Source: Indolivaga macrotermitis (GTDB lineage: Bacteria > Bacteroidota > Bacteroidia > Bacteroidales > Dysgonomonadaceae). From it: a DNA stretch of 55,545 nt. The notes below the pieces were generated by a model, which was not told the DNA's origin, ran no database searches, and was given only the letters and a program-made list of their open reading frames with translations. The stretch is taken from contig NZ_FQUC01000021.1 of NCBI RefSeq assembly GCF_900128985.1, forward strand, positions 1-55,545, given 5' to 3'. Both the position numbers and the translations under genes were made by a program. This document shows, one piece after another, positions 1,815 to 48,956 of this stretch. The first letter of the stretch is position 1; every line of letters starts with the position of its first letter.

Positions 1815-1845
1815 TAATGGTGTTTTAAAGATAGTATAGTAGAAA

Positions 1846-1876
1846 ATAAAAATCCCGACGATAATCGGGATTTTTA
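1846..1876. terminator. Bidirectional terminator
   Basis: AAAAATCCCGA and TCGGGATTTTT pair around a short loop, with an oligo-T run on either strand. It ends the rightward genes 1095-1814. On the other strand it would end any leftward transcript that passes through the CRISPR array. Confidence 0.75.
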
Positions 1877-1910
1877 TTTGAAATACATCATTTTTTGGAA
1901 TCCTAATGAG

Positions 1911-1934
1911 TTGTGATAGTTGTTGAATTACAGC
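1911..1934 (+). repeat. Partial inverted CRISPR repeat, left flank
   Basis: GTTGTGATA at 1911-1919 is identical to the first nine bases of the CRISPR repeat but lies in the opposite orientation to the array. It is followed by TTGAATTACAG, which resembles the repeat end TTGAAATACAG. It looks like an inverted repeat copy with an internal deletion. On the minus strand it is followed by CAACTCATTAGG. Confidence 0.45.
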
Positions 1935-1951
1935 GTATTATCTATACATAT

Positions 1952-2458
1952 ACTGTATTTCAAGGAACTAAGATACAAAATTGAAAGCTTATCACAACAA
2001 CGGTTTACTATCGTACACGACTTCTAAACTGTATTTCAAGGAACTAAGATACAAAATTGAAAGCTTATCACAACCGCATGGAGCTGGCACCATTAGTACT
2101 CTTTACTGTATTTCAAGGAACTAAGATACAAAATTGAAAGCTTATCACAACAATTGTATTGCTTTTAGTTTAGCGTTCTTGACTGTATTTCAAGGAACTA
2201 AGATACAAAATTGAAAGCTTATCACAACTGCCTCACTCTTAGCTTTGCTTATTATAGACTGTATTTCAAGGAACTAAGATACAAAATTGAAAGCTTATCA
2301 CAACAAGTAACATACAGCATTCTTCTGATACTTCACTGTATTTCAAGGAACTAAGATACAAAATTGAAAGCTTATGACAACATTTAATTTATTGTTATTA
2401 AATAAAAGTAAACTGTATTTCAAGGAACTAAGATACAAAATTGAAAGCTTATGACAAC
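1952..2458 (-). CRISPR. Type II-C-like CRISPR array, 7 repeats, 6 spacers
   Basis: Seven 47-nt repeats lie at 1952-1998, 2028-2074, 2105-2151, 2182-2228, 2258-2304, 2335-2381 and 2412-2458. They are separated by unrelated spacers of 29 or 30 nt. Five repeats are identical. The two rightmost carry one shared change (ATCACAAC to ATGACAAC). Read on the minus strand the repeat begins GTTGTGATAAGCTTTCAA and ends GAAATACAG, close to the 47-nt repeats of Bacteroides type II-C systems as I remember them. That sets the crRNA strand as minus. No cas gene is in the window, so Cas9 would have to come from elsewhere. The array starts 33 nt downstream of a leftward gene and is followed on that strand by a terminator. 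Confidence 0.95.
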
Positions 2459-2490: not shown

Positions 2491-2814
2491 TTATGCGATT
2501 GATATTATATTCATTCTCTTAAATGATCTGAAAGCTTCTTTTTCAGTGTCCCAGTAGGTAAAAAGAAGATCATTCGATTTTCTCTCTGTGCCTTTTATCT
2601 TATCAGCTATTACATCTTCTTTCAAAGTGCCGAATGCTTGACGAATCGAACCATCGATCTTTTGAAAATAAAACTTAGCGATACCCTTACGCATTGCTTT
2701 CGCTAATTTGAATAGTTGCCATGCCTTTTTAAGACATTCTGCGAATGCTTCGCCTGTTACCTTGAATAGTCGCCATGCTTCGCTCATTATTCTGCTTAAA
2801 TCTGTAGTTTTCAT
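2491..2814 (-). CDS. WYL_2 / SH3-barrel family protein (copy 1)
   Basis: A 107-aa protein with a helical N-terminal half (AWRLFK and AWQLFK elements) and a C-terminal stretch reading FYFQKIDGSIRQAFGTL, then a segment ending in a tyrosine- and phenylalanine-rich strand. This matches small Bacteroidales proteins annotated as SH3-barrel or WYL_2 (DUF2693), whose function is unknown. A paralogue lies at 22801-23121 in an equivalent cassette. It is the last gene of a leftward trio (3533, 3181, 2814) controlled from the divergent region at about 3540-3690, and the CRISPR array lies directly downstream on the same strand. Confidence 0.7.
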   Translation of the reverse strand: MKTTDLSRIMSEAWRLFKVTGEAFAECLKKAWQLFKLAKAMRKGIAKFYFQKIDGSIRQAFGTLKEDVIADKIKGTERKSNDLLFTYWDTEKEAFRSFKRMNIISIA

Positions 2815-2857
2815 AATCTTTATTTTTTTATGCGGGGCTTTCGCCCCGATTGGTTAT

Positions 2858-3181
2858 TTAATTTACGTTATCTTCTATCTCGTAATCACATGAACCATTA
2901 CATCGAGTAATCTCAGCTACTGCGATGCCGGTTATATCTACATACATACAGAAGTTGTCTACTTCTACGATATGCCAGCCATCATTGTAACGTACATATC
3001 CATCTTCATAGATAGTTTGTATAAGTGTACGGCCGTCAGGCATTTCATAAGATGCCAGTTCACAAGGATTTTTGATAGTGCCATTATTATACTCGCTAAT
3101 GTCGGACATAGCTTTTAGGACTCTATTAGCTAACTTTCTTTTAGTATCGAATTTGTCTGTATATATATGTGTTGCTTTCAT
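2858..3181 (-). CDS. Hypothetical accessory protein
   Basis: A 107-aa soluble protein that I cannot assign. Its middle reads like a beta-sheet protein (MPDGRTLIQTIYEDGYVRYN). It starts MKA-, as do other members of both accessory cassettes, and lies between the WYL_2 gene and a second hypothetical gene with gaps of about 40 nt. A GC-rich inverted repeat lies in each gap (GGGGCTTTCGCCCC near 2835 and CCCCGAAGGGG near 3201), perhaps mRNA-processing or attenuating hairpins. Confidence 0.6.
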   Translation of the reverse strand: MKATHIYTDKFDTKRKLANRVLKAMSDISEYNNGTIKNPCELASYEMPDGRTLIQTIYEDGYVRYNDGWHIVEVDNFCMYVDITGIAVAEITRCNGSCDYEIEDNVN

Positions 3182-3218
3182 ATGTGTGTATTTGAAGCCC
3201 CCGAAGGGGCTGTTTGTC

Positions 3219-3533
3219 TTATGCTGTCATTAATTCGCTCATATATCTCTCATATTCATTGTACGCTTTTATACTCATTTCGAGAAGCTCAAATTTGCCA
3301 TCTCTTTGAATACATACAAAGTCAACAACTACACCTACTTGCTTAGTTAAGAAAAGCATATAGTCAACACCTTCTACTTTTATTAATTTAGGCATATCCT
3401 TAGAAGATAGATTGTAATTCATACGTACAACTTCACATACATCTTCAGGTCTGCAATAAGAGCAATAAGGGTTATAATCTTCTTTTTTTAAGCCCTTAAT
3501 GAAGTTTACTTTGTTTGAATCGTTTGCTTTCAT
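3219..3533 (-). CDS. Hypothetical accessory protein, first gene of cassette 1
   Basis: A 104-aa protein with a cysteine pair (CSYC) near residue 24 and a C-terminus ending ELMTA. The protein at 23140-23526 in cassette 2 ends ELMTAHF, which hints at a common origin, though the rest of the two proteins differs. The function is unknown. It is the promoter-proximal gene of the leftward trio. Confidence 0.6.
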   Translation of the reverse strand: MKANDSNKVNFIKGLKKEDYNPYCSYCRPEDVCEVVRMNYNLSSKDMPKLIKVEGVDYMLFLTKQVGVVVDFVCIQRDGKFELLEMSIKAYNEYERYMSELMTA

Positions 3534-5236: not shown

Positions 5237-8200
5237 TTAATATTTATATTTGCTCAGTAACCATACTTTTACTTTAACATCATCTACCAGTCTATCATCA
5301 ACACATACAACCGTAGCCGTCTCTCCCTCGACAATATCAATATAAGTACTCTCGGTACTGTTCTGATATAACTTATGACCTGTAGGAGGTTGTAACCTTA
5401 TAGAACCGCTCATCCATTGCTTCAACTCGAGTTTTAAACCGATATAAGCGTCAGCAGGCAGCGTAACGGTTTGCTGTACGGTCGAATCAGAGAAAATATA
5501 AGTATCGGTTGTTAATAGTTCGGTGTTTTGGTCGGTTGTTCCGGATATCTGTTTTACCTTTAATATTAACCCATTCACTCGAAGCTTATCGAACCAACCA
5601 CCATAAGCAGGAGTTACATCCGAAGCATTCACATTTGAAGCAGTTCCGTAAACACCTATCGTACCTTTATAATTCTCTCCAGTATTTATTGCGCCCCGAC
5701 CTAACGCTGAAACAGAAGATAGGTAAGTATTACCATCAACGGCGGAACTAACATAACTACCCCTGCTTGACACATTCAACCCATTAGCCGAAAGGCGGGA
5801 ATTATTATTTGTATTGTATGCATAAATACCATAAGACCCAGGATCGATCTCTATCGTTTCCTGTCCTTGCAGTTCCGGCGAGTCCCAAAGCTTTTTGACC
5901 CTGAATATACCGTTAGTACCATCCAGTAGTATTTTAGGAGTGCCATCCGTATTTTGAGCAATAGAGCTGAACTTGTCATTATCGATAATCCACCCGGCAA
6001 ATAAAGCCTCACCGAATACTTTTAATGTTTCGCGAATTACAGCATTGGCCAGAGTCAAAGTGTTCTCTTCTGTCACATTCCAATCTAAGCCCGGCACTTT
6101 AAACTGATTATCCAACAATCGCCACCAACTATTCCCGTCGCTCGAATAAATATTATCGACAGTCATTTGTCCGGGCAGAATCTCGGTGTATCCGTACACG
6201 GTTCGAAAAGAACGATCCCCTTCAAATTCGGAACTCAGATAACCGACCCATAAGCAATAATAGCCATCAATATCATAAAGCCCTATACCCTCAGAGGATA
6301 TAAAGAATTCACCGGTACCGATCATTAAGCCATCCGTCTCGTCAAATGATTTAGAGCATTTCATATAGACATAATATCCCTGATCTGTTTCAGTGAGAAC
6401 ATCAGTCAAATATTGAGTAACACTCCAGTACTTGTACTGGTCAGGCTGCCGGTTCGGCTGCATCGTATCAATGTCAAGAGTCATATGCTTCACATTACTC
6501 GCCGGTAAGAGGAATTTCTTCGTTTCCGGATCAAAAGCAAAAGCCGGAGTTTGAACAGTCAGCCAGTCGGCCGCAACAAATTGATATTGCAGGGTTTCAT
6601 CACCAAATAAAGCCATCATCGAATGAATAGATACAGAACTTAGAAGCTGTTCAACAAAGCTACCCGATGGATCACGCATTGCATTTAATAACTCCATCGA
6701 TTGGGCCCAGCTTCTTTTAGCGAATCGTATCACCTCCTGTTGTTTCCGGTCAACCGTCTGCTCATTATTCTCTACCTTATTGACGACTGATGTGTTGAAT
6801 GAAGTACGGGTAACACTATTCGATAATTCAATCTTAGGCATTCTCGGCTTATTGACAAACCGTGTAGTCGCTGTTATCCGGATATCAGCACCTTCAGGTA
6901 AGAAATGAGGATCGGTAAGGTGGATAAAGTAACCGATATTCAAACGGTCACCGATAACACCCCAATTCTCTTTAGCATACTTCTGGTCCAAAGTAACCGA
7001 ATAAGTATATTGAGGCTGTTCATTCTCGTACAGATAAGCGACAACCTCATTCAAGGCTTTCTCTTCCGCTTCATCTATGTACTCCTGAGGTAATTTAATA
7101 TGAAATACAGCATACTTATCACCAACTGCAGGGATAATAGTACCTTGAGGATATACCAAGCCATTCTCTGAAATAGGCTGAATACGGAACCGTTTTGTCG
7201 TATGGTCGTAAGCGAAAGTAAATTCTTTTTCCGATCCGGCCAGTTCACCTGTTTGAAAGATAATAGCAGCCGTTTCTCCGGCAATCGCCAGCTGATTGTA
7301 GTCGATTACATTATCAGCATCAATAAATGCCCATAAACCCTTGCTGTCGTCTATTTCTTCAACGCCGGTAATAGTACCTTCATGTGACGGGTAAATCTCG
7401 GTAACATCGAGTGTTTCCTCAGGAGGAACAGCAACATCCCTCAGTGGTACTGCACGCTCAATATAAGAACCTGTAGAATCGGTTACATATTCAATTCCTT
7501 CGTAAACAATAGTCCTGCTTTTCGGCAGCCGTAAAGTATCATTACCATACGAAGCAAAATCAATATTCCGGTCGGATGATTCGATCCAGACGCGCGAGAT
7601 AGGTGTTTTATAAATCTTTCTCTCAAGACCATACAGAATACCGTTTCCTTCACCATAAGCAAGTGGGATAGGAGGGAAGTCTTTTCTCTCTACTTTCTTT
7701 AAATGAACCGTTTTACCTTCAACATTGAATTCGGTCTTATACCTGTCAGCGACATCACCCAAGAATTCATAACAGAACATATCGTTTATGTCGATAGTCA
7801 TTTCAACACCATCAATACACTCTCCTTTAGTCCATCCCCTGTTACGGTCGTTATAGTTCATACAATCGATAATCATATCCAGAAAGTCGGAAGGAGTACC
7901 ACGCAATGAATATTTAATCTTCGGTGGAGCGTTTAACTCGATACTTCCATCCGGCTCTTTATTCAGTGTAATGAACTTAAACTTTGTTTTCTTCATATAA
8001 GCAACAGGAGCCTCAAGAACTAAAGTGTATTCGTAATTCCTGTTACCCGATTTCTTGAAGTTATTCTCGCTGACCAGATAATACATCATGTTCTGGAATA
8101 CACAGTACATATCAATAGGCATATCTATATACTGTGTCAGGTTGAAATACAAACTCAGGTCGTCACGATTCATTATCGAATTATAAGCGTATGATTCGTC

Positions 8201-8251
8201 CGATACTTCAATGTCGATCAAGGGTGTAGTATTTGGATTATATAGTTGCAT
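5237..8251 (-). CDS. Tail tip / tail-associated structural protein
   Basis: A 1004-aa protein following the distal tail and fibre genes. The N-terminal 400 residues resemble baseplate-hub or tail-endopeptidase-type proteins (DIEVSDESYAYNSIM and a region of mixed strands). The middle has a helical segment (QQEVIRFAKRSWAQSMELLN). The last 350 residues are beta-rich and contain receptor-binding-like repeats (GIYAYNTNNNSRLSANG) and a C-terminal barrel-like module rich in hydroxyl residues. It is the likely host-recognition tip of the tail. The gene is 4 nt from the upstream fibre gene. I see no clear peptidase motif, so the enzymatic label is avoided. Confidence 0.65.
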   Translation of the reverse strand: MQLYNPNTTPLIDIEVSDESYAYNSIMNRDDLSLYFNLTQYIDMPIDMYCVFQNMMYYLVSENNFKKSGNRNYEYTLVLEAPVAYMKKTKFKFITLNKEPDGSIELNAPPKIKYSLRGTPSDFLDMIIDCMNYNDRNRGWTKGECIDGVEMTIDINDMFCYEFLGDVADRYKTEFNVEGKTVHLKKVERKDFPPIPLAYGEGNGILYGLERKIYKTPISRVWIESSDRNIDFASYGNDTLRLPKSRTIVYEGIEYVTDSTGSYIERAVPLRDVAVPPEETLDVTEIYPSHEGTITGVEEIDDSKGLWAFIDADNVIDYNQLAIAGETAAIIFQTGELAGSEKEFTFAYDHTTKRFRIQPISENGLVYPQGTIIPAVGDKYAVFHIKLPQEYIDEAEEKALNEVVAYLYENEQPQYTYSVTLDQKYAKENWGVIGDRLNIGYFIHLTDPHFLPEGADIRITATTRFVNKPRMPKIELSNSVTRTSFNTSVVNKVENNEQTVDRKQQEVIRFAKRSWAQSMELLNAMRDPSGSFVEQLLSSVSIHSMMALFGDETLQYQFVAADWLTVQTPAFAFDPETKKFLLPASNVKHMTLDIDTMQPNRQPDQYKYWSVTQYLTDVLTETDQGYYVYMKCSKSFDETDGLMIGTGEFFISSEGIGLYDIDGYYCLWVGYLSSEFEGDRSFRTVYGYTEILPGQMTVDNIYSSDGNSWWRLLDNQFKVPGLDWNVTEENTLTLANAVIRETLKVFGEALFAGWIIDNDKFSSIAQNTDGTPKILLDGTNGIFRVKKLWDSPELQGQETIEIDPGSYGIYAYNTNNNSRLSANGLNVSSRGSYVSSAVDGNTYLSSVSALGRGAINTGENYKGTIGVYGTASNVNASDVTPAYGGWFDKLRVNGLILKVKQISGTTDQNTELLTTDTYIFSDSTVQQTVTLPADAYIGLKLELKQWMSGSIRLQPPTGHKLYQNSTESTYIDIVEGETATVVCVDDRLVDDVKVKVWLLSKYKY

Positions 8252-8255
8252 GCAG

Positions 8256-10742
8256 TTACCAGTTTAATTGAAAGTCCCGTTTATCATTTGTAAAATCGTT
8301 CACCCCGATTTGCCATATAATCAGGTCGATTGTACTTAATGAACCTATTACCTCAGATTTAAATATACTAGGGTCGCCGCCCGTCATTGTATTGCCCGTA
8401 TCAATCCCGTCGAGATTAGTAGCACGTAAGGTCATACCTGAACCTCCGCTTATCGTAACAGTAGCCCCAAGAGCCACGCAAGCCCGACGTAAGAATTGCG
8501 CCCACGCAACACCGCCCCAGTCGTTATAAGTAGCTCCGACTGTGATCGAGTCCCCGACCAACTTAACACGCATACCCGTCATATCGCCGTATATGGAACG
8601 CAATTGCCCTGTTAGTAATTGCGTTAACAGGTTCGCCAAAGCTTGCGATCCGTCATCCATTCCCGGATGTAGCCCGTCCGAAGTCCAGTTCATCAGGTTG
8701 TTGACAGATGTTCCATCACTATTTACATTCTTTGCGAAATTTGTCAGCCCTGAAATAGCAGCCAAGTCTATGAATGGAATATTCCGATTCTTACATACTG
8801 CTCTCTGAGTCGCAATTAAAGCTTCTATTTCGGGGTAGTTTACAAAATGACCAACAAAGCAATGCAATGCCTTTTCTTTACTTGCATATACCTGATCTAA
8901 ACAGGTATTGAATGAACCGACAAACGAGTTTAACCCTCGCATATTTATATCATATTTAGCGATGGGCGTTTCACCGTCATAGATTTGATCCGATGATACT
9001 CGCAGATTTGGTAAAGTATATAGTGTATCGCTATCCGGAAATACACCGACATCTTTCAGATCGCCACCCTTAATTGATACTTCAAGTCCGGTTTCTTCTC
9101 CTGAATCGCTATCAGGATCTTGATATATCTTCCAGAATCTGTAATCACGCTTTTCCGGCAGGTCTTGATCGTAAGTTGTCTTGAACGAAGATACGTTCGC
9201 AATATTGAATCTTACGAACTTACATCCAAGGCCTCTGGGTATTAAACCTGTTTGCACCCGTGCGTAATATGAATTTGGAATATTGGTTTGCGTAAATACA
9301 ACAGCCGGAGGCGCCATAGGCACACCTAGTGTCTTATCACCCCAAGGTATTTCCTTTTTATTCTCATCATACATGATAAACGGTATCAACGTATTACCAT
9401 CTGTCATAGTGGTGTAGTTGGTAAAGCTGGGAATATAAAACAATCCGCCGTCACCGTCTACTTCAAAATAAAAGTCAAGGTAACCGAGATTATTGCCTCC
9501 CGTTGTTGGCGCTGCCGTGGGTAAACCTCCGGTCGCCTCTAAAATAACATTGGGAACAATAGGTAAATCACTGGATGTTGGATATTGAGGCCTTAAATCC
9601 GTTACAAATCTATTCTTCAGGGTAGTCGATGAACCACCACCGGATGAACTCGATATCCCTTTTATTTTTGTTACAGTGTCGCTGACTACATTTTCAAAAT
9701 CGAAACTCTGTAATTCATTGCCGGAAACATCAGTAAGAGCCGCCGCCGAACCTGTCGTACTACTGCCTGCATACTCGTACAGTTCAATCTCATTTCTTAT
9801 ATCGAAGCGGAACCAGTCCATTTTTGTCGTTAATATTGCTCCTGAATTGGTAAAGAAATTTGCATCCGAACAAAACACGGGTACAACTAACCACAACTCG
9901 ACATTTGGAGTAGTGAACTTAAACGGATTGCCCCATTCAGGATAAGCAACATACGACGGATATGCCGTTGTTCCCGTTACAGGTTCAGTTCCGGAAGCTG
10001 CCGAAGCAAACAGCAATACGGATGCCATGTGCCGTTGAGTCACGTTCTGATACGGGGCGGTATTGTCATACACCCACAAATTATTAGCAGGAGCAGGAGC
10101 ATCGGGTATCGATCGCTTCGTAAAGTCCATTGCTGCTGATTCCGGATCATAATCCACAATTGGCGGAAATAAGTCCTGATATCCGGTCTTTACGTTCCGA
10201 AGTTCATACGTTGTCGCCGGCTTTAACTTCATCATTAAAAATCGGTTCGTATTAGTCGATGTTGTTTTCTGAATGAATACGCCAACACCTGTAAGGGTCG
10301 AACCGATACCGTTGAAATACCAGGAATTATATCCGGAGAATAAATAGCCGTTTGCAGCCCCTGTTTCGGTTGCCCGGAAAGCAGTTGTCAGGTCGGTTGC
10401 TCCGCTCGATCCGTCGTTGCTATCGACGGCAGGTTTGAAGTAAGCGGCGGCTTGAGTCTCCGAATTTACTTTATCAGCTTTGGTCGCCAATTGCACAAGT
10501 GTTACTTCTCCGTCAGCTCCTTTTGACGGATTACCGGAATCAACCCCATCGATAAGCCAGTTACCATTCGCCCCGACAGTTACGACAGGCGAATGTCCGT
10601 CTGCTCCTTTGTTCCCTTGGAGTTGCTCAAGAGTAACTTTAACCGAATTATTATTTGCATCAACAGCAGGAACTAGTAGGCCAGGGGTGAGAGTCCCATC
10701 CGGAAAGTCCGATATCTTTATCGTTTTATATTTATCAGCCAT
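8256..10742 (-). CDS. Tail fibre with circularly permuted SGNH hydrolase domain
   Basis: An 828-aa protein. The N-terminus carries a short collagen-like GADG/GKGADG segment and a coiled linker, typical of phage fibres. The middle (about 100-580) is beta-rich. The C-terminal part contains the signatures of an SGNH/GDSL esterase in unusual order: block V (TSDGLHPG, catalytic Asp/His) at about residue 686, then block I (VKLVGDSITVG, nucleophile Ser) at about 730, then block III (GVND) at about 811, ending 10 residues later. Normal enzymes run I-III-V. It probably deacylates surface glycans during adsorption. The gene is 3 nt downstream of the distal tail gene. Confidence 0.75.
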   Translation of the reverse strand: MADKYKTIKISDFPDGTLTPGLLVPAVDANNNSVKVTLEQLQGNKGADGHSPVVTVGANGNWLIDGVDSGNPSKGADGEVTLVQLATKADKVNSETQAAAYFKPAVDSNDGSSGATDLTTAFRATETGAANGYLFSGYNSWYFNGIGSTLTGVGVFIQKTTSTNTNRFLMMKLKPATTYELRNVKTGYQDLFPPIVDYDPESAAMDFTKRSIPDAPAPANNLWVYDNTAPYQNVTQRHMASVLLFASAASGTEPVTGTTAYPSYVAYPEWGNPFKFTTPNVELWLVVPVFCSDANFFTNSGAILTTKMDWFRFDIRNEIELYEYAGSSTTGSAAALTDVSGNELQSFDFENVVSDTVTKIKGISSSSGGGSSTTLKNRFVTDLRPQYPTSSDLPIVPNVILEATGGLPTAAPTTGGNNLGYLDFYFEVDGDGGLFYIPSFTNYTTMTDGNTLIPFIMYDENKKEIPWGDKTLGVPMAPPAVVFTQTNIPNSYYARVQTGLIPRGLGCKFVRFNIANVSSFKTTYDQDLPEKRDYRFWKIYQDPDSDSGEETGLEVSIKGGDLKDVGVFPDSDTLYTLPNLRVSSDQIYDGETPIAKYDINMRGLNSFVGSFNTCLDQVYASKEKALHCFVGHFVNYPEIEALIATQRAVCKNRNIPFIDLAAISGLTNFAKNVNSDGTSVNNLMNWTSDGLHPGMDDGSQALANLLTQLLTGQLRSIYGDMTGMRVKLVGDSITVGATYNDWGGVAWAQFLRRACVALGATVTISGGSGMTLRATNLDGIDTGNTMTGGDPSIFKSEVIGSLSTIDLIIWQIGVNDFTNDKRDFQLNW

Positions 10743-10744
10743 TA

Positions 10745-11749
10745 TTATATTTCTATTAAAAAGTTATCATCTTCTGTTACAAACATCAGTTTATCCTCGG
10801 TACCCAGTACCTTAACCGTTGTCTTCGGTCTGGATTTGGTAAATACCAGAACCAAGTTGAACTGACATAAAATATAGGATGGGTGCATTTCTATCTTAAA
10901 ATTCGAAGAACTTTTATAGTGACATTCGAATGTATCATTCATATAGTCGACACCCAGTAACCTTTCATCCGGTGCAGTTAAAGCCGAAAAGAAAGCGGTA
11001 TAGTTATTCCAGAACATATCTATATTCTTTGTCAGAAAGCTGCATTCAAGAGTAACCTCTTTGCTCTTGAATACATTGAATGATGTATCATACTGAACAC
11101 TATCCTGAGAACCGATATTCACTTCCAGATTCGTTTTCAGATCAGGAATTTTATATATCTCAGCCCTGCCTTTATTGACGATTAAGCCATATTTAGAAAA
11201 TGAAATACCATCAAGCTGGTACTCTGACAAAGGCATATTCATACCATGCCCCATAGCTGAGGTAGAACTATTCGACATGTCGATGAGGTATTGACCGTCT
11301 TCAGTAATAAGCAGATCTCCGCTTTCCGTACCCAATACATAAGGGTATATCAATAATAAGTCTCTGGGAAAATCATCATAAAATTGCAAGGTGAACTCCT
11401 GAGCTTCACGCTCTACATTCCTGGCAGACTCTTTATTCAACCTTAATCGATATGAACGTCCAAGTGAAGTGAAAGACAGTGTCCGGTATCCGGGTTCCGT
11501 CAGGAATATGATAAAATCATCGATCTTCTCATTGTCACGGGTGACGCATGAGAAAGTTAAATCGACAGCCTCATTATTTAGTTTAATTTCTGAAAGGTCA
11601 ACATCAATGCCATCGCTTTCTGGCCAGTCATTATAATAGAGTTCTTTAATTGAAGGGAATGTAATAAGCCCTCCAAACCCGTCTCTGGATATTCCTATAC
11701 CGTATTTAGCGTATATATCTATTCCGTCTATGTACCAAAGTCCTGTCAT
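10745..11749 (-). CDS. Distal tail protein (Dit-like)
   Basis: A 334-aa protein made of two similar halves. Each begins with a GIxxYAKYG/GISFSKYG-type element and contains a central strand set ending VDLTFSC or VTLECSF. Each half ends with a TEDGQYLI or TEDDNFLIEI tail. It sits between tape measure and fibre genes, where Dit joins the tail tube to the tip complex. The call rests on synteny and on the two-domain layout. The gene starts 1 nt before the tape-measure stop. Confidence 0.65.
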   Translation of the reverse strand: MTGLWYIDGIDIYAKYGIGISRDGFGGLITFPSIKELYYNDWPESDGIDVDLSEIKLNNEAVDLTFSCVTRDNEKIDDFIIFLTEPGYRTLSFTSLGRSYRLRLNKESARNVEREAQEFTLQFYDDFPRDLLLIYPYVLGTESGDLLITEDGQYLIDMSNSSTSAMGHGMNMPLSEYQLDGISFSKYGLIVNKGRAEIYKIPDLKTNLEVNIGSQDSVQYDTSFNVFKSKEVTLECSFLTKNIDMFWNNYTAFFSALTAPDERLLGVDYMNDTFECHYKSSSNFKIEMHPSYILCQFNLVLVFTKSRPKTTVKVLGTEDKLMFVTEDDNFLIEI

Positions 11750-11750
11750 G

Positions 11751-14700
11751 TTATCTTAATGATATGCCGTTATCCCTGATCTCTCTTAATATAGAAGTTG
11801 TGGCAGCCGTATTAGCTGCTATCTGCCTTTGAAACTCCAGCTGGTCGTTAAAAACCTGTTTATAGCTATTGACAGCATCTTTCACGTCCGACAAGTGTCC
11901 GTTCTGAATTTTCAGATAATCCTGATTTTGTTTATTGATATTGCGGATATCATTAACCGATTGACGCAGGGCATAGAAATTGGCGTTAATCTCATTCGCT
12001 GAATCCTGAGTAATAGATGCCGCTACACCGGTTATTCCGTTTATGTCAGAGTTTTCTTTACTGACACCCATAGCATCCAAAGCTGAATCATACAGGCTTT
12101 GAGCTTTGTTATATGCTTCCTCATACATTTTTTGAAGCTCAGCCTTTTCACCGGATGTTAAGCCGAAAGTATCATCTGTGCTACCGGATTCGGCATATTC
12201 GGCAAACTTATCATACCAGTCTTGTAAGGCATTGGTCAGGTAACTGCTCTTTGTGAATTTGAGAGCAGCTGTTCTCATATGATCATTGAATGAATCCCCA
12301 ACATCGCTGAATATCGTATCGGCTGATTTTACCAGATCATCCAAACTATCTTTCAGACTATCGAATGTGATACCTGTTACAGCCTCTTTGACAGATTTTT
12401 GTATATCCTCTATCTTTTCGCTTCCGTCAATTATATTTTGAAGATATTCCTTAGTTTCATCATTTAGCTTCGCCCAAAGCGTAGGGGCTTCCTCCTTCAA
12501 CCTTTCTAACTGTTCGGCGGTCAGGTCAAATAAGCCTGTCATTCTTCCCGTAGTGACAGAACTATAAAGAGAATCGGATATATTGTTGTTTTTCTTCCAT
12601 GCCTCCAAATCTGCCCAGTCATCACTATCGATCCTTCCTTGCTGGCGAACACCCCACGACTTTCCTCCTTTGTTTTGAAAGGAGTTTAAAAAAGATTTAC
12701 CTAATTTCCTATAAGACTCAATGCTTTTTTCGACCAGGGATTCGGCTTCTTTACCAACCCTTACAGCTTCTTCTCCATAGGATATGGATAGGTATTCTTT
12801 CTTTTTATCGATAAGTTGGTCCCAAACCGCATTGAGCCTGTCGTATTGCTCTTTTAGTTTTATGTACTGTTTGTTATCGCCTCCTCCGAACATTCCGAAA
12901 ATTCCGGCTACGGTTTTACCCAGACCGGTTATTGTTTTCACCGATCCCGATATGATAGAGAATGGCTTGGTTAGGTCAATTGATTCAAGGCCTGACATCA
13001 TTTGCCCTACACCCTCGAGAGCCTTTTGGAATTGTTCGGGAACTTCCACCCCGAAATCGTTAAGCATGTCCAGTATATCGTTACCTGCATTGACAATTTC
13101 AGTACCTTTCCGTCCTGCGTCATTGATGGATTTGGACATTTTCTTCAGGGCAGCAACTCTGGCGTTTTCAGCATTGGCTAGGTCTTTTTTGTATTTGACA
13201 TAATTAACATCATTCTCTTCAAGTGAATTCAGATTTGCCTTTGCTTTTGCAACATCATCGATTGCTCTCTTGTAATCGGCATAGCCTTCTTTAAGTTCGG
13301 TTAGAGGCTGCTTATTTGCTAGTTTTTCGTCAATACCCTCTATCGCTTCACTTACAGCTTTTAAGTCTTGTATATTAATATTATCTCCGGCAGCCTGTAA
13401 GTATTCTCTTAGTTTATCGCGAAGGTCTTTCAGTGCATCAGTCGAAACTTTATCAAGGTCTCCAAAAACCTGTTCCCAATTGATCTTTTCTTTAAAATCA
13501 TCAAGGCTAAGAGCAGATGTTTCTTTCTTCTCAGCTTTATTTAGATTTTCAATCAATTGGAGATTTCCAGATTCCATAGCTTTAGCCCGGAGATCGATAT
13601 ATTTTAGAGCTATCTTATTTTGCTTTTCTTCAAATGTTCGATATTCTTCCAAAGCATCATCAAATACATCCTTACGTTGTAGTTTAGCTATATTATTAGA
13701 ATTGTTACTCCATGATGCATATGCCTGATCTTCTTTTTTATTGGTTTGTTCATCAATATACTTAGTCTCCAGTTCTTCAGGTAGAGCTTTTTTACCAAAC
13801 TTCTCGATGAAATCAGCCTGCTCTTTTAGTTTCTCGTCATTGAACTCTTTTATTTTTTGTAGTTCTTTCCGGTAATTGAGGTCATTCTGTTCAAACTGTT
13901 TTTCATAAGAATCTTTTTTCAGGTCGAGTAGAGCTTGCTCATTATCTAATTCAGCCTGGATAGCTTCATTGGTTAGCTTTTTACGAAGATCGGATTCTTC
14001 TTTTGAGATTTTTTGAGCTTTTTCGGCATCTTTTATATTCTTTTTATTTTCAGCATCTTCTTGCTTTGAAGTTTTACCCTTCAAAGTCTTAATTTCGTCT
14101 TGTTTAGCCTTTATCTTGCTATCTATATCTTCAAGTTGCTTTTTTAGTTGATCTTCACTTAACTTCGCATCATTCTGTTCTATTTTTTTTCTTTTATCTT
14201 GTAATATCTTCAGATCACTATTATATTGTTTTTCCCATTCGATGTAACTTTTTACAGGAAGCTTTCTTTTATTTAATTCAGCGGTTAAAGCGTCAGTTTG
14301 TTGCTTAATCTGGTCAGCATTAAAATCACCATCAAGAACTCCACCTTTGGTTGTTCCTAACTTTGCATCCTTATATTGCATCTCTGCTTGTAGCCTTTGA
14401 CGTGCAGCTAACTCAGCTTTTATCTGAGTATCGGTCATTTTATTAATGCCTGATATAAAAGAGTTTATTCGATCGTTCTGAACCTTCGATTCATGATCTT
14501 CTAAAATCTTATTGGCATAATCCATTTTATTTTTAGCATCAGCAAGAGCTATATCATATCCTTGCCATGCAGCATTAGTATTCTTGAGACTATTATAGTA
14601 TTTTGTAGCCTTATCTGCTTCAGCTTTCGCTTTATCATAATCAGATTTATTTGTTTTTACTTTTTCTCCAGAATCAATTTCAGCTATTTGTTTTTTTATA

Positions 14701-16031
14701 GATAGGATATCCGCCAATTTCAATGTCTCAATGTCGTACTTTGCAAATATCTGAGGGTATTTTTGCTTTAATTTCTCAAGTGCATCGGTACGTTCGAGAT
14801 CTGCTAAAGCTTGATTTGTTGATGAAGTAATTAATTTCTCAATCTCATTCCTATGTTCTTCTTCTTTTTGAGCAGCTTCTTCTTTTATTTTATTTAGGTC
14901 TGCTTGTGCTTTCTCTGCTCCCGTTGTGCTATCTCTTAAAGCCCACATAGTTGCTACTAAGCCAATAATAGCAACAGTGACAGCTACATAAGGATTAGCA
15001 AGCATAACTTTATTTAATATAGATAATGCCGCACTCCATTGTCTAGAAGCAACAGCTCCTAATTGTTGAGAAGTTGTTAATGTCGCATTTGCTAAAGCTG
15101 CTTGTAGTGCCATCTCAGCTTGCACTCTCATTATAACATTATTCAAAATTATTGCAGTTCTGTATGCTCCATAAGTAGCAACTAAAGCAAGTAATACTTT
15201 ACCCAGCTTCTCATAATTAGCTACGAGAAGATTAAGCCCATCCATAGATGAGTAGATAATACCTTCACTGCTTTTACCTATGGAATTGAATACAGCATCT
15301 ATATTGTCTTTTAGTTCCTCCCAACGTCCACCGATGGATTTAGATTGCTCAGCCATCAGGCCACCGTACATACCTCCGGCAGTTGTCATATTCTTGAAGG
15401 CTTGCTCAACTTCTGGAAATCCTACTTTTCCGGCAGAGACAAGTTCGTTAACTTTACCTTCAGCGACACCAAGTACTTTTGCAAGTTCTGCATAAATAGG
15501 AATTCCACGTCCGGCAAACTGGCGTATATCCATTAAATAGGCACGACCTTGCATTCTAAGAGTTCCATACAGATAAACAAGATCACCTATTTGCTGACCG
15601 GTGCCGGCTGCCACATCTCCGAGCATAGTCATTTCTTTAATGACATCTTCAGCTTTGGATCCGTAAGCGATCAGCTGTTTAGCTCCAGATGATGCAGATT
15701 CAAGGCCGAAAGGAGTATTTGCAGCAAATGTTTGAAGTTCCGACATCAGCTTTGTTGCTTTTTCGGTACTCTTCAACATGGTACCAAAAGCAATCTCTAA
15801 TTGTTGGAACTGATTGCGTACCTGAACAGTTTTACTAATAAGTTCTTTTACTCCGAATGAGATTCCAAACATGCCAGCTGCACGTGACATCTTGTTAAAC
15901 ATCAATTCAATTCTGTCACCTTCAGAGATAACATTATTTGAAAAGGTGTTAACCGCGCGTCCTGATCTATTGAGAGCATTAAGAAACTCCCGATCATTTG
16001 CTGTTATGTTAAAGCCTAAACCTGTATTCAT
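11751..16031 (-). CDS. Tail tape measure protein
   Basis: A 1426-aa protein. Residues about 60-230 contain the tape-measure domain (FQQLEIAFGTMLKSTEKA, TPFGLESASSGAKQLIAYG, MDIRQFAGRGIPIYAEL). Hydrophobic segments follow at about 280-360, then a very long lysine- and glutamate-rich coiled-coil region and a further hydrophobic segment near 1040. It sets tail length. At about 0.15 nm per residue the tail would be near 210 nm, which indicates a long-tailed siphovirus. It follows the chaperone pair, as usual. Confidence 0.92.
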   Translation of the reverse strand: MNTGLGFNITANDREFLNALNRSGRAVNTFSNNVISEGDRIELMFNKMSRAAGMFGISFGVKELISKTVQVRNQFQQLEIAFGTMLKSTEKATKLMSELQTFAANTPFGLESASSGAKQLIAYGSKAEDVIKEMTMLGDVAAGTGQQIGDLVYLYGTLRMQGRAYLMDIRQFAGRGIPIYAELAKVLGVAEGKVNELVSAGKVGFPEVEQAFKNMTTAGGMYGGLMAEQSKSIGGRWEELKDNIDAVFNSIGKSSEGIIYSSMDGLNLLVANYEKLGKVLLALVATYGAYRTAIILNNVIMRVQAEMALQAALANATLTTSQQLGAVASRQWSAALSILNKVMLANPYVAVTVAIIGLVATMWALRDSTTGAEKAQADLNKIKEEAAQKEEEHRNEIEKLITSSTNQALADLERTDALEKLKQKYPQIFAKYDIETLKLADILSIKKQIAEIDSGEKVKTNKSDYDKAKAEADKATKYYNSLKNTNAAWQGYDIALADAKNKMDYANKILEDHESKVQNDRINSFISGINKMTDTQIKAELAARQRLQAEMQYKDAKLGTTKGGVLDGDFNADQIKQQTDALTAELNKRKLPVKSYIEWEKQYNSDLKILQDKRKKIEQNDAKLSEDQLKKQLEDIDSKIKAKQDEIKTLKGKTSKQEDAENKKNIKDAEKAQKISKEESDLRKKLTNEAIQAELDNEQALLDLKKDSYEKQFEQNDLNYRKELQKIKEFNDEKLKEQADFIEKFGKKALPEELETKYIDEQTNKKEDQAYASWSNNSNNIAKLQRKDVFDDALEEYRTFEEKQNKIALKYIDLRAKAMESGNLQLIENLNKAEKKETSALSLDDFKEKINWEQVFGDLDKVSTDALKDLRDKLREYLQAAGDNINIQDLKAVSEAIEGIDEKLANKQPLTELKEGYADYKRAIDDVAKAKANLNSLEENDVNYVKYKKDLANAENARVAALKKMSKSINDAGRKGTEIVNAGNDILDMLNDFGVEVPEQFQKALEGVGQMMSGLESIDLTKPFSIISGSVKTITGLGKTVAGIFGMFGGGDNKQYIKLKEQYDRLNAVWDQLIDKKKEYLSISYGEEAVRVGKEAESLVEKSIESYRKLGKSFLNSFQNKGGKSWGVRQQGRIDSDDWADLEAWKKNNNISDSLYSSVTTGRMTGLFDLTAEQLERLKEEAPTLWAKLNDETKEYLQNIIDGSEKIEDIQKSVKEAVTGITFDSLKDSLDDLVKSADTIFSDVGDSFNDHMRTAALKFTKSSYLTNALQDWYDKFAEYAESGSTDDTFGLTSGEKAELQKMYEEAYNKAQSLYDSALDAMGVSKENSDINGITGVAASITQDSANEINANFYALRQSVNDIRNINKQNQDYLKIQNGHLSDVKDAVNSYKQVFNDQLEFQRQIAANTAATTSILREIRDNGISLR

Positions 16032-35196: not shown

Positions 35197-35378
35197 TATT
35201 TGAAATCTAATTCGTTTTGACCTCTCTTTTGAAGCTCATTTCTATATTCTTTTAGAGCTTCTTTTACCATTGTCTCATTACGCATTAATCCAAAAGGAAG
35301 AATACCGGACAATCTAGCCTCGCAACGGGCTATCCCGTATCTAAGTTGTTCATTTGTATAATCTTTAATTGTTTTCAT
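35196..35378 (-). CDS. Small hypothetical protein
   Basis: A 60-aa protein from the ATG at 35378, which overlaps the methyltransferase stop (35375). It is helical and charged (YGIARCEARLSGILPFGLM). The stop shares its last base with the start of the initiator gene. The family is unknown. Confidence 0.55.
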   Translation of the reverse strand: MKTIKDYTNEQLRYGIARCEARLSGILPFGLMRNETMVKEALKEYRNELQKRGQNELDFK

Positions 35379-37525
35379 ACAACAGCCATTTGATGTTTGT
35401 ATAATTTTCGGGCATTGGCTTCGCATATTACACGAGCCATATTAACTTCTACGGCATTACCTATATACTTTTTCTGCTCGGCTTGAGTACCTATCAAAAT
35501 ATAATCTTTAGGAAATCCCATTATCATTTTGAGTTCAGGAATACGAAGCATTCGCATTTTTATATCGAGAATACCATACATCGCCATAAACTCTTTTATT
35601 TCTTTCATTTTGGGAGAGTCATCTTTATATATTTCATAGATAATAGTATTATCAATAGTTTTGATGAAAGAAGGTGCATGCTTTTGCTCTGTAGATGCTT
35701 CGATTAAATATGGAGGTGTTTTATCCATTCTTGCAATCAAGGTAAAACATGGACTTTCAATGTCTTTTCCTATCCTTCTATATTGAGCATCCATTAAATA
35801 ATGCCATTTTCGGTTTGCTGTGACAGTAGGCGAAGGTTCATCTAATGAAGAACCTACATTGCCGAAATTGGTATTCATTAACCAGTTACGGCAAGTAACA
35901 AGATTGTATTTTGGATTTGCCGTTATTCCTCCTAATGGATTATTGATACTTGCGGCCTTCGATTGTCCGAATTGTTGGTCAACAAAATGACATTGTACTA
36001 AATTCTGCTTGGGATTAGTCATTATTGCTGGACATGGTTTATTGACAGAACTTATTTGACCTCCACCCGAATAGTTGTTCATGAAAAATGGGGATATAAG
36101 AGAAAATCGATCTTTGGTTAATACTGTAGGGCATGGAGATTCCAAATCTTTAGGTTCATCTTTGTAGTTGTATGAACATAAGAATTTGGGACTGACAAAA
36201 GCTAACCTATCCTTAGTTGTTACAGTCGGCGATGGACCTTCAATAGAGTGATTGTGACCATTTCCATAATATGCAGAAAGGAATGACGGTGTTACTAATG
36301 ACTGACAATCTTTTGTCCTCAAAGTAGCTGCCGGATCATTTATATCTGAAATCATTTGATCGGGATTACCTGAATAATATTTTGTCAAGAATGTAGCATT
36401 GACAAAAGAATGATGATCTACTCCAGTAATTGTGTGGGCGGGTCCTTCTATACTTATATTCTTACTATCAGGATGGCCGGAATAGTGTTTACACAAAAAT
36501 GCTTGGACTAAACCGAACCTATTATTGGTTGTAACCGTATTACATGGATCATTGATTGATTTAACCCTGTCATTTCTTTGATTATATTGGACTAAATATT
36601 TTGTCGAAATTAACTGTAATCGACCTTGAGTACTTATTGTTGGACAAGGATCCTCAATTCCAGGAGCGTTATATTTCCCATTTTGGCTCATCGAATTGTA
36701 TTTTAATAGAAACTTATCTTTTCCTCCTGCTACAAATTTTATAAGTCCGGATAATATCCTATCGAGAGTAGCTTCTACCAAAGGTTTTTTTCTGCCGAAT
36801 ATAGACTCACCTTCATCTGAGAAATTAAGACATTCTTTTACAGGTTTCCATTTCAGGAGACTATTAAATAAATCTTTTGTACCTGTTTTACTATGAGTTT
36901 GACTTGGCCATGTAATAGGTAAATCTTTTCGGGCGAATATTCCAAAAAAACGCTTTCTACTTGTATATGCACCATAATCAGCAGCATTAAGTATTCGATA
37001 ATCGAAATTGTAGCCATATTTTTTGACCTCATTTATCCATCTGCGATAATGCTTTCCATTAGTTGAAGAAATAGGTTTTCCTCTCTCATCAAGATCTCCC
37101 CACGACATGAACTCTTCTACATTCTCTATTTGTATATAGTCCGGTTCAAGATTATGAATGTATCTGAATAAATGTTCCGCTAAGGTACGGCTATCAGCAT
37201 CTCTGGGTAAGCCACCTTTTGCTTTACTAAAATTTGTACATTCTAAAGAAGCCCAAAGAACAATTTTTGCATTTGGATATTGTATTTTATTAAGTTTAAT
37301 ACATAACCATATTTTAGTAAGATCCAGCGTTCTTATATCTTCTGTGAAATGTAAAGCTTCAGGGTGATTTTCTGCATGTGAAGCTATTGCATTGGCATCA
37401 TGGTTTACACATGCTATTACTTTAGCGCATTGTTCCCCTTTCAGACGGGCATTTTCTACACCTGTCGATGTACCTCCAGCTCCGCAAAATAGATCTATAT
37501 ATAGGAATCGTATATTATCCATCAT
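35375..37525 (-). CDS. C5-cytosine DNA methyltransferase with ten tandem internal repeats
   Basis: A 716-aa enzyme. Motif I FCGAGG is at 13-18, the motif IV region SLECTNFS holds catalytic Cys96, and ENV is at 134-136. The final motif GNAVEVN is near the C-terminus. Between about 271 and 620 lie roughly ten degenerate units of 33-37 residues, each with an F-L-x-x-Y start, an SI-x-x-P-x-P-T-V-T-T-x-D-R centre and an L-V end. Ordinary family members have one or two. It transfers methyl to cytosine, probably protecting phage DNA. It overlaps its neighbours by 4 nt at each end. Motif IV lacks the usual proline (LEC rather than PPC). Confidence 0.9.
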   Translation of the reverse strand: MMDNIRFLYIDLFCGAGGTSTGVENARLKGEQCAKVIACVNHDANAIASHAENHPEALHFTEDIRTLDLTKIWLCIKLNKIQYPNAKIVLWASLECTNFSKAKGGLPRDADSRTLAEHLFRYIHNLEPDYIQIENVEEFMSWGDLDERGKPISSTNGKHYRRWINEVKKYGYNFDYRILNAADYGAYTSRKRFFGIFARKDLPITWPSQTHSKTGTKDLFNSLLKWKPVKECLNFSDEGESIFGRKKPLVEATLDRILSGLIKFVAGGKDKFLLKYNSMSQNGKYNAPGIEDPCPTISTQGRLQLISTKYLVQYNQRNDRVKSINDPCNTVTTNNRFGLVQAFLCKHYSGHPDSKNISIEGPAHTITGVDHHSFVNATFLTKYYSGNPDQMISDINDPAATLRTKDCQSLVTPSFLSAYYGNGHNHSIEGPSPTVTTKDRLAFVSPKFLCSYNYKDEPKDLESPCPTVLTKDRFSLISPFFMNNYSGGGQISSVNKPCPAIMTNPKQNLVQCHFVDQQFGQSKAASINNPLGGITANPKYNLVTCRNWLMNTNFGNVGSSLDEPSPTVTANRKWHYLMDAQYRRIGKDIESPCFTLIARMDKTPPYLIEASTEQKHAPSFIKTIDNTIIYEIYKDDSPKMKEIKEFMAMYGILDIKMRMLRIPELKMIMGFPKDYILIGTQAEQKKYIGNAVEVNMARVICEANARKLYKHQMAVV

Positions 37526-37731
37526 TTCATCAATTTATATCCATCCATATAATTACCAACCCGATAAGATTTAACTACATTATTTTCGGATATAATACCC
37601 AGTACATGAAGTTCATTCGTCGATCTCCAAAACTCAGATTTACTCATATCGGCCATATTATGACAAAGGAGATAACTGTGTATCTCCTTTATTCTTGCTT
37701 CAATTTGTTCTTTATTTCGTCTCATAATCAA
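37522..37731 (-). CDS. Small hypothetical protein
   Basis: A 69-aa basic protein (RRNKEQIEARIKEIHSYLLC, SEFWRSTNELHVLGI), probably helical. It is coupled to both neighbours by overlaps (4 nt downstream, 20 nt upstream). It is not recognised. Confidence 0.55.
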   Translation of the reverse strand: MIMRRNKEQIEARIKEIHSYLLCHNMADMSKSEFWRSTNELHVLGIISENNVVKSYRVGNYMDGYKLMK

Positions 37732-40234: not shown

Positions 40235-40344
40235 TTTAATGTAAGTTTAACCGGGCCCGATTGGTTAATACTCTTCGTAACTGGTGAGAAACTCGACCTC
40301 TCACACAAATACCACCTCAAAAGAGGATTATTTACAGCTATTGG

Positions 40345-42003
40345 TTATATATTCTTACTTAATAAATTAATAACTCCACTTTGTACACTCATCTCAACAT
40401 CATCACGTGCCCCGGTAATCGCATTTGATACAGAGCGTTTTTTATCAATAATATCATATATATGTTCGTCTATCGTGTCTTTTCCAAGGAGATAAACACA
40501 ACTGACAGAATCAACCTGTCCGATCCGGTGAGCTCTGTCCTCACATTGTTCACAATCTGCCGGATGCCATGGTAATTCGAGAAAAGCGACACGGCTTGAT
40601 GCGGTTAGAGTAATACCCACACCGGCAGCTTTGATAGAACAGATAATTAACTGCACTTTCGGATCTTTCTGAAACTTATCGACATTAGCTTGACGAGTTT
40701 GTGTATCATCATCTCCAAGGATAGTCACAGCAGCCGGAAATGATTTTTTTATCATGTCCTGAACCTCTCTTAAATGGGTAAATAAGATTAGTTTTTCGCC
40801 TGAATCAATTACATCAGAGATATATTCGATTGCATCTTTGATTTTACCACGAGCCGAAATATTTTTGAGTATTCCTATACGGACCATGATTTCTCCTTTC
40901 ATGGACTTCTGGATCTGGGTATCCGTAGCTTGTCTGTAACGCTTCAGGTAATCTTCCAAATCAGCCAAGGCGTCATTGTATTCTTTACGAGTAGTGATGT
41001 TGCAAAGAACGATCTGTCTCATTTTAGCAGGTAATTCTTTTAGTACATCGGCTTTCTCTCTTCTGTAAAAGCAATTCTTTTTTAGCAGGTAATTAAGTTC
41101 ATGATATCTATCACTACTATCGCAATAAGATGAAACGAAATTTTTATAACCTCCGAAATCTTCCATACGATCCAAAATCCCAAGTTGGGATATTAAATCA
41201 TTTGGCTTGTTAACGACAGGTGTACCAGTAAGCAGATATACATATTCTTTTCCAACAGAAATACCTTTAACAAACTTTGTTGTTTGAGTTTTGATATCTT
41301 TCACTCGGTGACTCTCATCACATACAATAGATTTAAATAACTTTATCTTTGATTTGAACTTGATGTGATTAAGCCGTAATGGGACTTTCTTTCCATCTTC
41401 ACCGATAGGCTGTTTAATTTCAGCTACGAAATACTTCTTTAGACTTTCATAATTGACGATAAATATATCAGCATATCGCATTTGATAAAGCATATCCCAC
41501 GTATCCTTGATGCTATCAGATAGAATTGTGGCTTTATGATTGCCCCACATATCAAACTCTCTTTCCCAGTTTATTTTAAGAGAAGAAGGACAAATCACTA
41601 AGCATGGAAAAGCCTGTGCTGCAATTACAGTCGCTATAGCCTGAGCCGTCTTTCCAAGCCCCGGCGCATCTCCTAAAATTGTTTTTTTGTGAATTAGGTT
41701 ATAAGCAACACCTTGACGTTGATATCCGAATAGTTGACGTTTCAAAGGTATATCCTGTTCGAGTATTGGCATTTCAGGGATTCTCATATTGGAGATAGGC
41801 TTTGGAGCCGGTTTATCTCCTATTTGAAATCGGTGAGTTTTCGCGAACTGATTAATATACGATCTACTCGATATCGGTACGAACCATGATTTATCCTGAT
41901 AATTGAATTGTCTGCCAGGTATAAGTTTTATATCATTTACTATATTTTGATTATAGTCGAATAAAATATTAAAACCTCTAGGTGTCTCTATAATTTTACG
42001 CAT
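40345..42003 (-). CDS. SNF2-family DNA helicase (HARP-like N-terminus)
   Basis: A 552-aa helicase. The N-terminal 60 residues resemble a HARP-type domain (FNYQDKSWFVPISS). Motif I GLGKT is at about 118-122, motif II is DESHR, motif III is LLTGTP, and motif VI is DRAHRIGQ. It is a double-stranded DNA translocase probably acting in phage replication or recombination. It overlaps the nuclease-like gene by 16 nt. Confidence 0.9.
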   Translation of the reverse strand: MRKIIETPRGFNILFDYNQNIVNDIKLIPGRQFNYQDKSWFVPISSRSYINQFAKTHRFQIGDKPAPKPISNMRIPEMPILEQDIPLKRQLFGYQRQGVAYNLIHKKTILGDAPGLGKTAQAIATVIAAQAFPCLVICPSSLKINWEREFDMWGNHKATILSDSIKDTWDMLYQMRYADIFIVNYESLKKYFVAEIKQPIGEDGKKVPLRLNHIKFKSKIKLFKSIVCDESHRVKDIKTQTTKFVKGISVGKEYVYLLTGTPVVNKPNDLISQLGILDRMEDFGGYKNFVSSYCDSSDRYHELNYLLKKNCFYRREKADVLKELPAKMRQIVLCNITTRKEYNDALADLEDYLKRYRQATDTQIQKSMKGEIMVRIGILKNISARGKIKDAIEYISDVIDSGEKLILFTHLREVQDMIKKSFPAAVTILGDDDTQTRQANVDKFQKDPKVQLIICSIKAAGVGITLTASSRVAFLELPWHPADCEQCEDRAHRIGQVDSVSCVYLLGKDTIDEHIYDIIDKKRSVSNAITGARDDVEMSVQSGVINLLSKNI

Positions 42004-48304: not shown

Positions 48305-48421
48305 TATATCAGCCTTTGCTTTCTTATAGGAGCTTTCGAATAAGTTCTACCAGCACCGTTTGAATCGTTATTTTCAACCAAGAGGTTAGGCCTTGTCTTT
48401 TATTTTTATATCTTAAGCTTA

Positions 48422-48497: not shown

Positions 48498-48527
48498 AGA
48501 ACAAAAAGGCAACAGCCTGTTTATTTT

Positions 48528-48932: not shown

Positions 48933-48956
48933 TGTGATGATTTTTAGTATTATAAA

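Follow-up and report, generated by a model that had tools for sequence, protein, structure and literature searches.

Virus-borne CRISPR arrays as such are already known, and several kinds are described in the excerpts of the literature on which this comparison draws. The Sulfolobales viruses SPV1 and SPV2 carry mini-CRISPR arrays (Medvedeva et al. 2019, PMC6858448), which resemble the locus reported here in their position on a virus, the lack of cas genes, a host-like leader, spacers against competing viruses and a presumed use of the host machinery. The mini-arrays of phages and prophages of Faure et al. 2019 (as related in PMC7099407, PMC6858448 and PMC11656645) are similar in their host-like repeats and in the lack of cas genes. 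According to the same excerpts, phage mini-arrays contain one or two spacers directed at related viruses (PMC11656645, PMC7099407), and their leaders are absent or unlike that of the host (PMC6858448, PMC7099407).

Type I-B arrays of C. difficile are likewise situated inside prophages, with toxin-antitoxin genes nearby, and exclusion of competitors has been proposed as their role in the excerpted text (PMC6079278). Arrays of huge phages are compact (median of six repeats), have host-like repeats and may use host Cas proteins; among the targets of their spacers are structural genes of other phages and intergenic regions of bacteria, a feature shared with the array considered below (PMC7162821, in part). 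Solitary repeat units, or RNA anti-CRISPRs, are described as phage-carried CRISPR repeats without cas genes (PMC10651486, in part). The CRISPR-invader network of B. fragilis includes a Microviridae phage, as stated in the excerpt of PMC9367070.

The locus reported here lies in the window, i.e., the whole stretch of DNA that was analysed (55,545 nucleotides), which is the entire contig C12 of the Indolivaga macrotermitis assembly (4.66 Mb, 49 contigs). Its features are collected in Table 1. The repeats start at positions 1952, 2028, 2105, 2182, 2258, 2335 and 2412 (period 76–77) and enclose spacers of 29, 30, 30, 29, 30 and 30 nt in array order. Regular, near-identical repeats and unique spacers of constant length thus identify a CRISPR array, precisely where the initial annotation had placed seven 47-nt repeats with 29–30-nt spacers.

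Table 1. Features of the window and matches of the spacers. G000 is the host assembly; C7, C10 and C26 are its contigs.
Feature	Position	Strand	Remarks
Holin-like gene, open at contig end	3–413	−	PHROG 20732 (function unknown), 7e-22; Pfam phage holin weak, E 0.025, below cut-off
Zincin-protease-like phage gene	410–757	−	Relatives in 130 phage records
Two small ORFs, function unassigned	1095–1307 (70 aa), 1317–1814 (165 aa)	+	Between lysis genes and leader
Leader	1842–1951	+	110 nt; includes terminator-like hairpin 1844–1879
CRISPR array	1952–2458	−	Seven 47-nt repeats and six spacers; sense from host anti-repeat
Spacer 1	1999–2027	−	29/29 to Microviridae prophage major capsid gene, G000:C7:33380-33408
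Spacer 2	2075–2104	−	26/30 to microvirus Rep gene, C7:35592-35621; 4/4 differences synonymous
Spacer 3	2152–2181	−	No match above chance level
Spacer 4	2229–2257	−	25/29 to microvirus pilot gene, C7:35141-35169; 3/4 differences synonymous
Spacer 5	2305–2334	−	Best 23/30, microvirus contig L066; not clearly above chance
Spacer 6	2382–2411	−	30/30 to host chromosome, C26:203481-203510
Three small ORFs right of array	2491–3533	−	Two match phage families: PHROG 1086 / WYL_2, PHROG 32495
Tail module	5237–16031	−	Tail protein 10745–11749 and tape measure 11751–16031 recognised
S24/HTH-type repressor	51682–52320	+	
Right attachment site	53954–53984		31-nt core identical to G000:C10:171399-171429, beside integrase
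tRNA-Leu (gag)	53970–54054	−	Likely integration target; then tRNA-Gly, dprA

Repeats 1–5 are mutually identical, and repeats 6 and 7, at the leader-distal end, have one common change (TTATCACAAC to TTATGACAAC). The changed base is used in a 10-bp inverted repeat at 2449–2480, which spans the boundary of the array, from the end of its last repeat into the adjoining DNA (TTATGACAAC ... GTTGTCATAA). Within the CRISPR repeat, GTTG-N18-TATCTTAG resembles a Bacteroidetes promoter, and each unit may carry a promoter of its own.

The 110-nt stretch left of the array aligns to leaders of cellular type II arrays, and a hairpin of the type found in this leader comes after cas2 in the host locus. A similar leader and repeat adjoin cas2 in the host and in other genomes of the family, which argues against a chance repeat, as does the match of spacers 1 and 6 to the genome across the spacer length and no further. 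Over the 110-nt alignment, the leader of the prophage is 86% identical to that of family genome G018, 82% to that of G090 and 79% to that on contig C38 of its own host. The best two of these values belong to other genomes, which makes a related bacterium, and not the current host locus, the probable source of the array. Between the leader and the lysis genes, the two small ORFs gave no PADLOC match and only weak matches, below cut-off, in the other family searches. The longer one ends in a hydrophobic segment (judged by eye), and no relative of it was found among the other 100 family genomes searched.

The proposal that the array is phage cargo between lysis and tail genes was borne out. Holin-like and zincin-like genes lie on its left, small phage genes and the tail module on its right. 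Most phage-record relatives of the zincin-protease-like gene are named after Bacteroidota hosts or crAssphage. In the tail module, the part at 5237–8251 matches phage families of unknown function, and no phage family was matched in the ORF region 8256–10742. The left edge of the prophage is absent from the window and was placed on contig C10, where the second copy of the attachment core is followed by a tyrosine integrase (PF00589, 1.1e-13; PHROG integrase, 3.3e-23). Beyond the integrase, C10 contains a tail-fibre-like gene and further ORFs up to the contig end at 177032; its last ORF, which is cut off there, resembles an endolysin by eye. From this gene order we infer that C10 precedes C12, the two contigs being without overlap. 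In this order the prophage comprises 5,634 + 53,984 bases plus a gap, and the array is situated about 7.6 kb from its left edge. With phage genes on both sides and an attachment copy at either end, the array is cargo of the prophage, given the inferred order of C10 and C12. A left boundary to the right of the array was not found, and a host array that merely adjoins the prophage was ruled out by the attachment site and integrase on C10, ahead of the window by the same order.

The sole other copy of the locus is the IMG/VR record 2651869758_000002, which corresponds by coordinates to 96–53953 of the window, covers the array and stops one base before the attachment core. It is identical to the window over the compared stretches of 21,002 and 10,877 bases and is probably derived from the same isolate. 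The nearest related prophage, in G016, is interrupted by a contig start within its tail genes. A second tailed-phage large terminase is present in the host (G000:C15:41535-42650; 34% identical to that of the window).

The prophage bears other cargo as well. A diversity-generating retroelement at 47306–49110 consists of a reverse transcriptase (47306–48304), a template repeat (approximately 48421–48498) and variable repeats (approximately 48606–48681 and 49035–49110) in the ORFs 48528–48932 and 48957–49436; 26 of the 28 differences between template and copies start from A. The regions 35375–42003 and 52380–53465 contain genes for a cytosine methylase, an ORF combining SNF2-like and N6/N4-methylase parts, an SNF2 helicase and an HSDR_N-domain gene.

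Genome-wide, HNH_4 (Cas9) and Cas1 were matched on contig C38 only, with nothing in the window, in agreement with the earlier remark that no cas genes accompany the array. C38 (8.7 kb) carries a cas9-cas1-cas2 locus with the one cas9 and the one cas1 of the genome. Cas9 (1488 aa; TIGR01865, 414 bits against a cut-off of 100) looks full-length, its nuclease residues having been viewed by eye, and Cas1 is of type II (TIGR03639). The ORF list of this contig contains no further recognised cas gene, neither csn2 nor cas4. A tracrRNA-like element lies upstream of cas9 on the opposite strand and comprises an anti-repeat and a terminator-like hairpin. With cas9, cas1, cas2 and a tracrRNA complementary to the repeat, the latter predicted from the sequence, the host locus belongs to type II-C. 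The II-C-like character ascribed to the repeat is therefore upheld by the host locus and also by its resemblance to the B. fragilis II-C repeat (PMC9367070, as excerpted).

The first host repeat differs from the prophage repeat by one mismatch, so that a host Cas9 with a matching repeat, which had been named as a thing to look for, is present. Prophage repeats 1–5 pair with the tracrRNA-like element at −30.7 kcal/mol, as does the host's own repeat; repeats 6 and 7 pair less well (−24.3 kcal/mol). The sense of the crRNA deduced from the host anti-repeat is the minus strand of the window, the direction of the tail and lysis genes. HNH_4, Cas_Cas1 and anti-repeat searches of the window revealed no cas9, no cas1 and no tracrRNA of its own; outside the array the host anti-repeat found nothing better than 16/21. 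The host array on C38 has its own leader, one intact repeat, one spacer (best match 21/30) and a truncated repeat. The array in the prophage is thus not the main array of the host with cas genes just beyond the window, an outcome that the initial annotation had set against its own proposal.

Three of the six spacers match another virus, a single microvirus, as would be expected of a virus-borne array for interviral conflict. The suggestion of rival phages or plasmids as targets holds for spacers 1, 2 and 4; spacers 3 and 5 have no clear match, and spacer 6 corresponds to host DNA. An exact full-length foreign match was found for one of the six (spacer 1), those of spacers 2 and 4 being partial. 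The target is a resident Microviridae prophage on contig C7, which occupies 6,057 bp, is bounded by 20-nt direct repeats and has genes for capsid, pilot, Rep and M15-peptidase/endolysin. Its capsid protein has 219 matches in phage records, all below 60% identity (top listed 47.8%); every named product among the 30 matches listed is capsid or VP, and many of the records are labelled Microviridae or microvirus. Microviruses of this kind were encountered in only 2 of the 101 family genomes. The target presumably belongs to a virus realm other than that of the tailed carrier phage.

Spacers 1, 2 and 4 match three different genes of this microvirus in the same strand sense. The number of matches expected by chance is 8e-11 for spacer 1 and 3e-9 for spacer 6 (with an assumed base composition), and both matches end at the spacer ends without extension into the repeats. 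The site of spacer 6 is situated between two genes: it begins at the final stop-codon base of a 76-aa ORF, ahead of a radical-SAM gene. In the host-genome search, spacers 2 and 4 gave weak matches in the resident microvirus (E 0.005 and 0.002). Random 30-mers of the phage (3000) never scored above 23 on this microvirus, and shuffles of spacers 2–5 (3000) never above 22. Against 86 microvirus sequences (454 kb), 9 of 400 random 30-mers reached 23, 1 reached 24 and 2 reached 25; a score of 25 is therefore rare for the single resident microvirus and less so over the 86 sequences. For the resident microvirus, chance as the source of the matches of spacers 2 and 4 was ruled out by these scores and by differences that follow the reading frame. 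With 7 of the 8 differences synonymous, relatives of the resident virus are the very probable source of the two spacers.

Spacers 3 and 5 reached at best 21/30 and 23/30, respectively, among the 86 microvirus sequences. BLAST of the array against phage and plasmid collections yielded nothing convincing among the best 20 of 38 and the best 20 of 52 matches, and an exact scan of IMG/VR with spacer 2 found it only in the record of the prophage itself. An exact match for the leader-proximal spacer 1 and diverged ones for the older spacers 2 and 4 agree with what insertion of new spacers at the leader end would produce. In a comparison with cellular arrays, 1 of 238 spacers reached 25/30 (in a phage region) and none matched a microvirus in a target set of about 810 kb. 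These spacers were taken from ten arrays in nine other genomes, two arrays of G033 being possibly parts of one, and the exact hits of spacers on the arrays from which they came (L189, L190, L202 and L203) were disregarded. The comparison is a weak control, as neither of the two microvirus-bearing genomes supplied spacers.

The 3' flank of the spacer 1 protospacer (TCAAATCG) fits a candidate PAM, NNAA. Seven protospacer flanks were compared, namely those of spacers 1, 2, 4 and 6 and of three G090 spacers (25, 26 and 24 of 30); in a shuffled-spacer control for the latter, 1 of 200 reached 24. The motif, chosen after looking, fits five of the seven (spacers 1 and 2 and the three of G090) and does not fit spacers 4 and 6 or two G001 protospacers (27/30 each; the G001 Cas9 is only 56% identical), so NNAA is suggestive only. 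Spacers 1 (29/29) and 6 (30/30) have exact matches in the carrier genome itself. Since both sites should be cut by an active Cas9, silence, inhibition or blockage by the PAM is probable for the system in this lysogen. Survival could be explained by silence of the array in lysogeny, by an inhibitor, by a wrong PAM or by a system switched off in this isolate.

Prophage-borne immunity against microviruses that depends on the host Cas9 is the best reading of the locus, and it is considered moderately probable. Transcripts of the minus strand of the array would pair with the host tracrRNA and then mature into crRNAs of the form spacer + GUUGUGAUAAGC... (from the minus strand of 1952–2458), which would be loaded into the host Cas9. 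The guided enzyme could cut the double-stranded replicative DNA of arriving microviruses. Host Cas1-Cas2 would have inserted the spacers at the leader end, and the lysogen, hence the prophage, would gain protection from a competing virus family. A wider proposal is put forward tentatively and is held to be possible but rather doubtful: the phage could act as a carrier of the host's adaptive immunity, i.e., of an updatable, leader-driven Cas9 memory that is written by host Cas1-Cas2, where the host array has collapsed to one spacer, is aimed across realms at integrating ssDNA microviruses and spreads horizontally by infection.

The tolerance of two exact matches to the resident genome could also be explained if the array is a captured one that formerly worked and is now inert, leader and array having been gained by recombination with the locus of a related bacterium and the spacers being an unused, unexpressed fossil record. 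The closer relation of the leader to G018 and G090 than to the host, and the drift of repeats 6 and 7 with their weaker pairing, would agree with this, as would the arrays or array remnants of G033, G011 and G030, for which no cas genes were recognised in the stretches examined. Nevertheless, five repeats are identical and the leader is conserved, and three spacers against one virus type are unexpected of a mere relic. The matches of spacers 1 and 6 to their own genome point to acquisition probably in this host lineage, recently enough for zero mismatches, and an inert array is accordingly judged unlikely.

The same two exact matches, one in a resident prophage and the other in an intergenic site of the host ahead of a radical-SAM gene, would suit guides with which Cas9 represses, or acts on excised DNA only, thereby keeping the microvirus prophage in check and modulating the gene near spacer 6. 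Regulatory roles have been suggested for phage spacers against bacterial intergenic regions (PMC7162821, in part). Such control is nonetheless quite improbable, as the spacers are full length, the Cas9 on C38 looks full-length and nothing specific favours non-cutting guides; the fit of spacers 2 and 4 to other microviruses is better explained by defence. A further reading is that of a Racr-like decoy, in which repeat RNAs soak up host tracrRNA or Cas9 and the spacers are incidental. Its support comes from the lone repeats of further loci that are prophages or phage-like (L044, L197 and L241) and from Racr candidates reported for almost all CRISPR types (PMC10651486, as excerpted). A decoy, defined by repeats without spacers, has no need of seven regular repeats, a leader and six spacers of true length, three of them against one virus type, and a host array of a single spacer leaves little to inhibit; this explanation is regarded as very unlikely. 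Defence by means of the host Cas9 is retained as the preferred reading.

Stray repeats of the same kind were observed in other genomes. A lone repeat at L044:5425-5470 (G001:C18; 46/47 to the repeat of G001 itself) is situated in a prophage-like region, flanked by a phage Rha gene and a HigB-toxin/HTH pair, with a terminator-like hairpin beside it. Another (L197:3529-3575, G023:C246; 45/47 to the prophage repeat) has a HigB-like toxin/HTH pair as its neighbour, and the region around it may stem from a phage. A HigB/HTH pair also follows the remnant of the host array on C38 (L007:531-1240), so that stray repeats and HigB-type pairs co-occur at three places. On the viral contig L241 (IMGVR_UViG_2585427864_000002), at most 1.4 kb from the left end, a truncated II-C repeat at 409–450 retains about 30 nt, the tracrRNA-pairing half; a terminator-like hairpin follows directly and an HTH gene is nearby. 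This repeat could be a candidate RNA anti-CRISPR. Five contigs of G026 (C203, C145, C229, C188 and C2; L192–L196) bear one or two degenerate repeat copies each, and neither cas genes nor relatives of the window phage (tblastn) were found in the stretches examined.

Among the 2.9 million contigs of IMG/VR, a 30-base pattern covering four Bacteroidales II-C repeats was present in two stretches only (exact matching misses variants), namely the prophage array and a contig with a single repeat followed by terminator-like sequence. In G033, contig C38 was rejected as a second phage-borne array, since its leader and array adjoin chromosomal-looking genes and only a lone degenerate repeat touches a phage remnant. 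The small arrays of G011 and G030 were likewise rejected, since tracr-like DNA lies beside them and they seem, by eye, to be left over from chromosomal loci. A 44-nt match (H91) connects the G090 array with a 4.6-kb phage record, and the array segment in it extends beyond the spacer into the repeat. A chromosomal G090 spacer (spacer 109, L207) matches 25/30 a G016 prophage related to the carrier (L040:7339), so that CRISPR may in turn target viruses akin to the carrier. In G018 (L206, contig C68), Cas1 and Cas2 are 93% and 96% identical to those of the host and the repeat family is the same, and Cas9 is strongly diverged (pieces of 25–49%), which suggests a cas9 exchange.

What is new in the present locus is the combination of type II-C, a leader, six spacers and an unrelated ssDNA target. 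A conserved leader (79% identity to the host, 86% to a relative), six spacers and a target presumably of another virus realm set it apart from the mini-arrays of Faure et al. The one or two spacers and carrier-related targets of the printed descriptions do not apply to it, as its six spacers include those for a microvirus and not for a tailed phage. SPV1 and SPV2, as far as they are portrayed in the excerpts, are archaeal and have one or two spacers with closely related targets, whereas here a bacterial tailed prophage carries six spacers of the II-C (Cas9) type, and the virus targeted, an unrelated ssDNA microvirus, resides in the same genome as the carrier. The C. difficile arrays are of type I-B rather than Cas9-based, occur in many copies per genome and are directed at clostridial phages (PMC6079278, in part). 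Solitary repeat units are single inhibitory repeats, in contrast to this regular array with targets (PMC10651486, in part). The huge phages exceed 200 kb and are metagenomic, as excerpted from PMC7162821, while here an integrated prophage of about 60 kb, the host cas locus and the target are found in one assembly.

Our searches of the open-licence literature found no account of a II-C array in a prophage with microviruses as its targets. Because carrier, host cas locus and exact target occur together in one assembly, inter-virus immunity by a borrowed Cas9 is directly testable, and so is the survival of a lysogen with perfect self-matching guides, whether by silencing, an inhibitor or the PAM. 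The virus-borne arrays described so far, in the excerpts compared, are tiny (one or two spacers), lack a host-like leader when carried by phages and are directed at close relatives, and the array of this prophage differs from them on each of these points.
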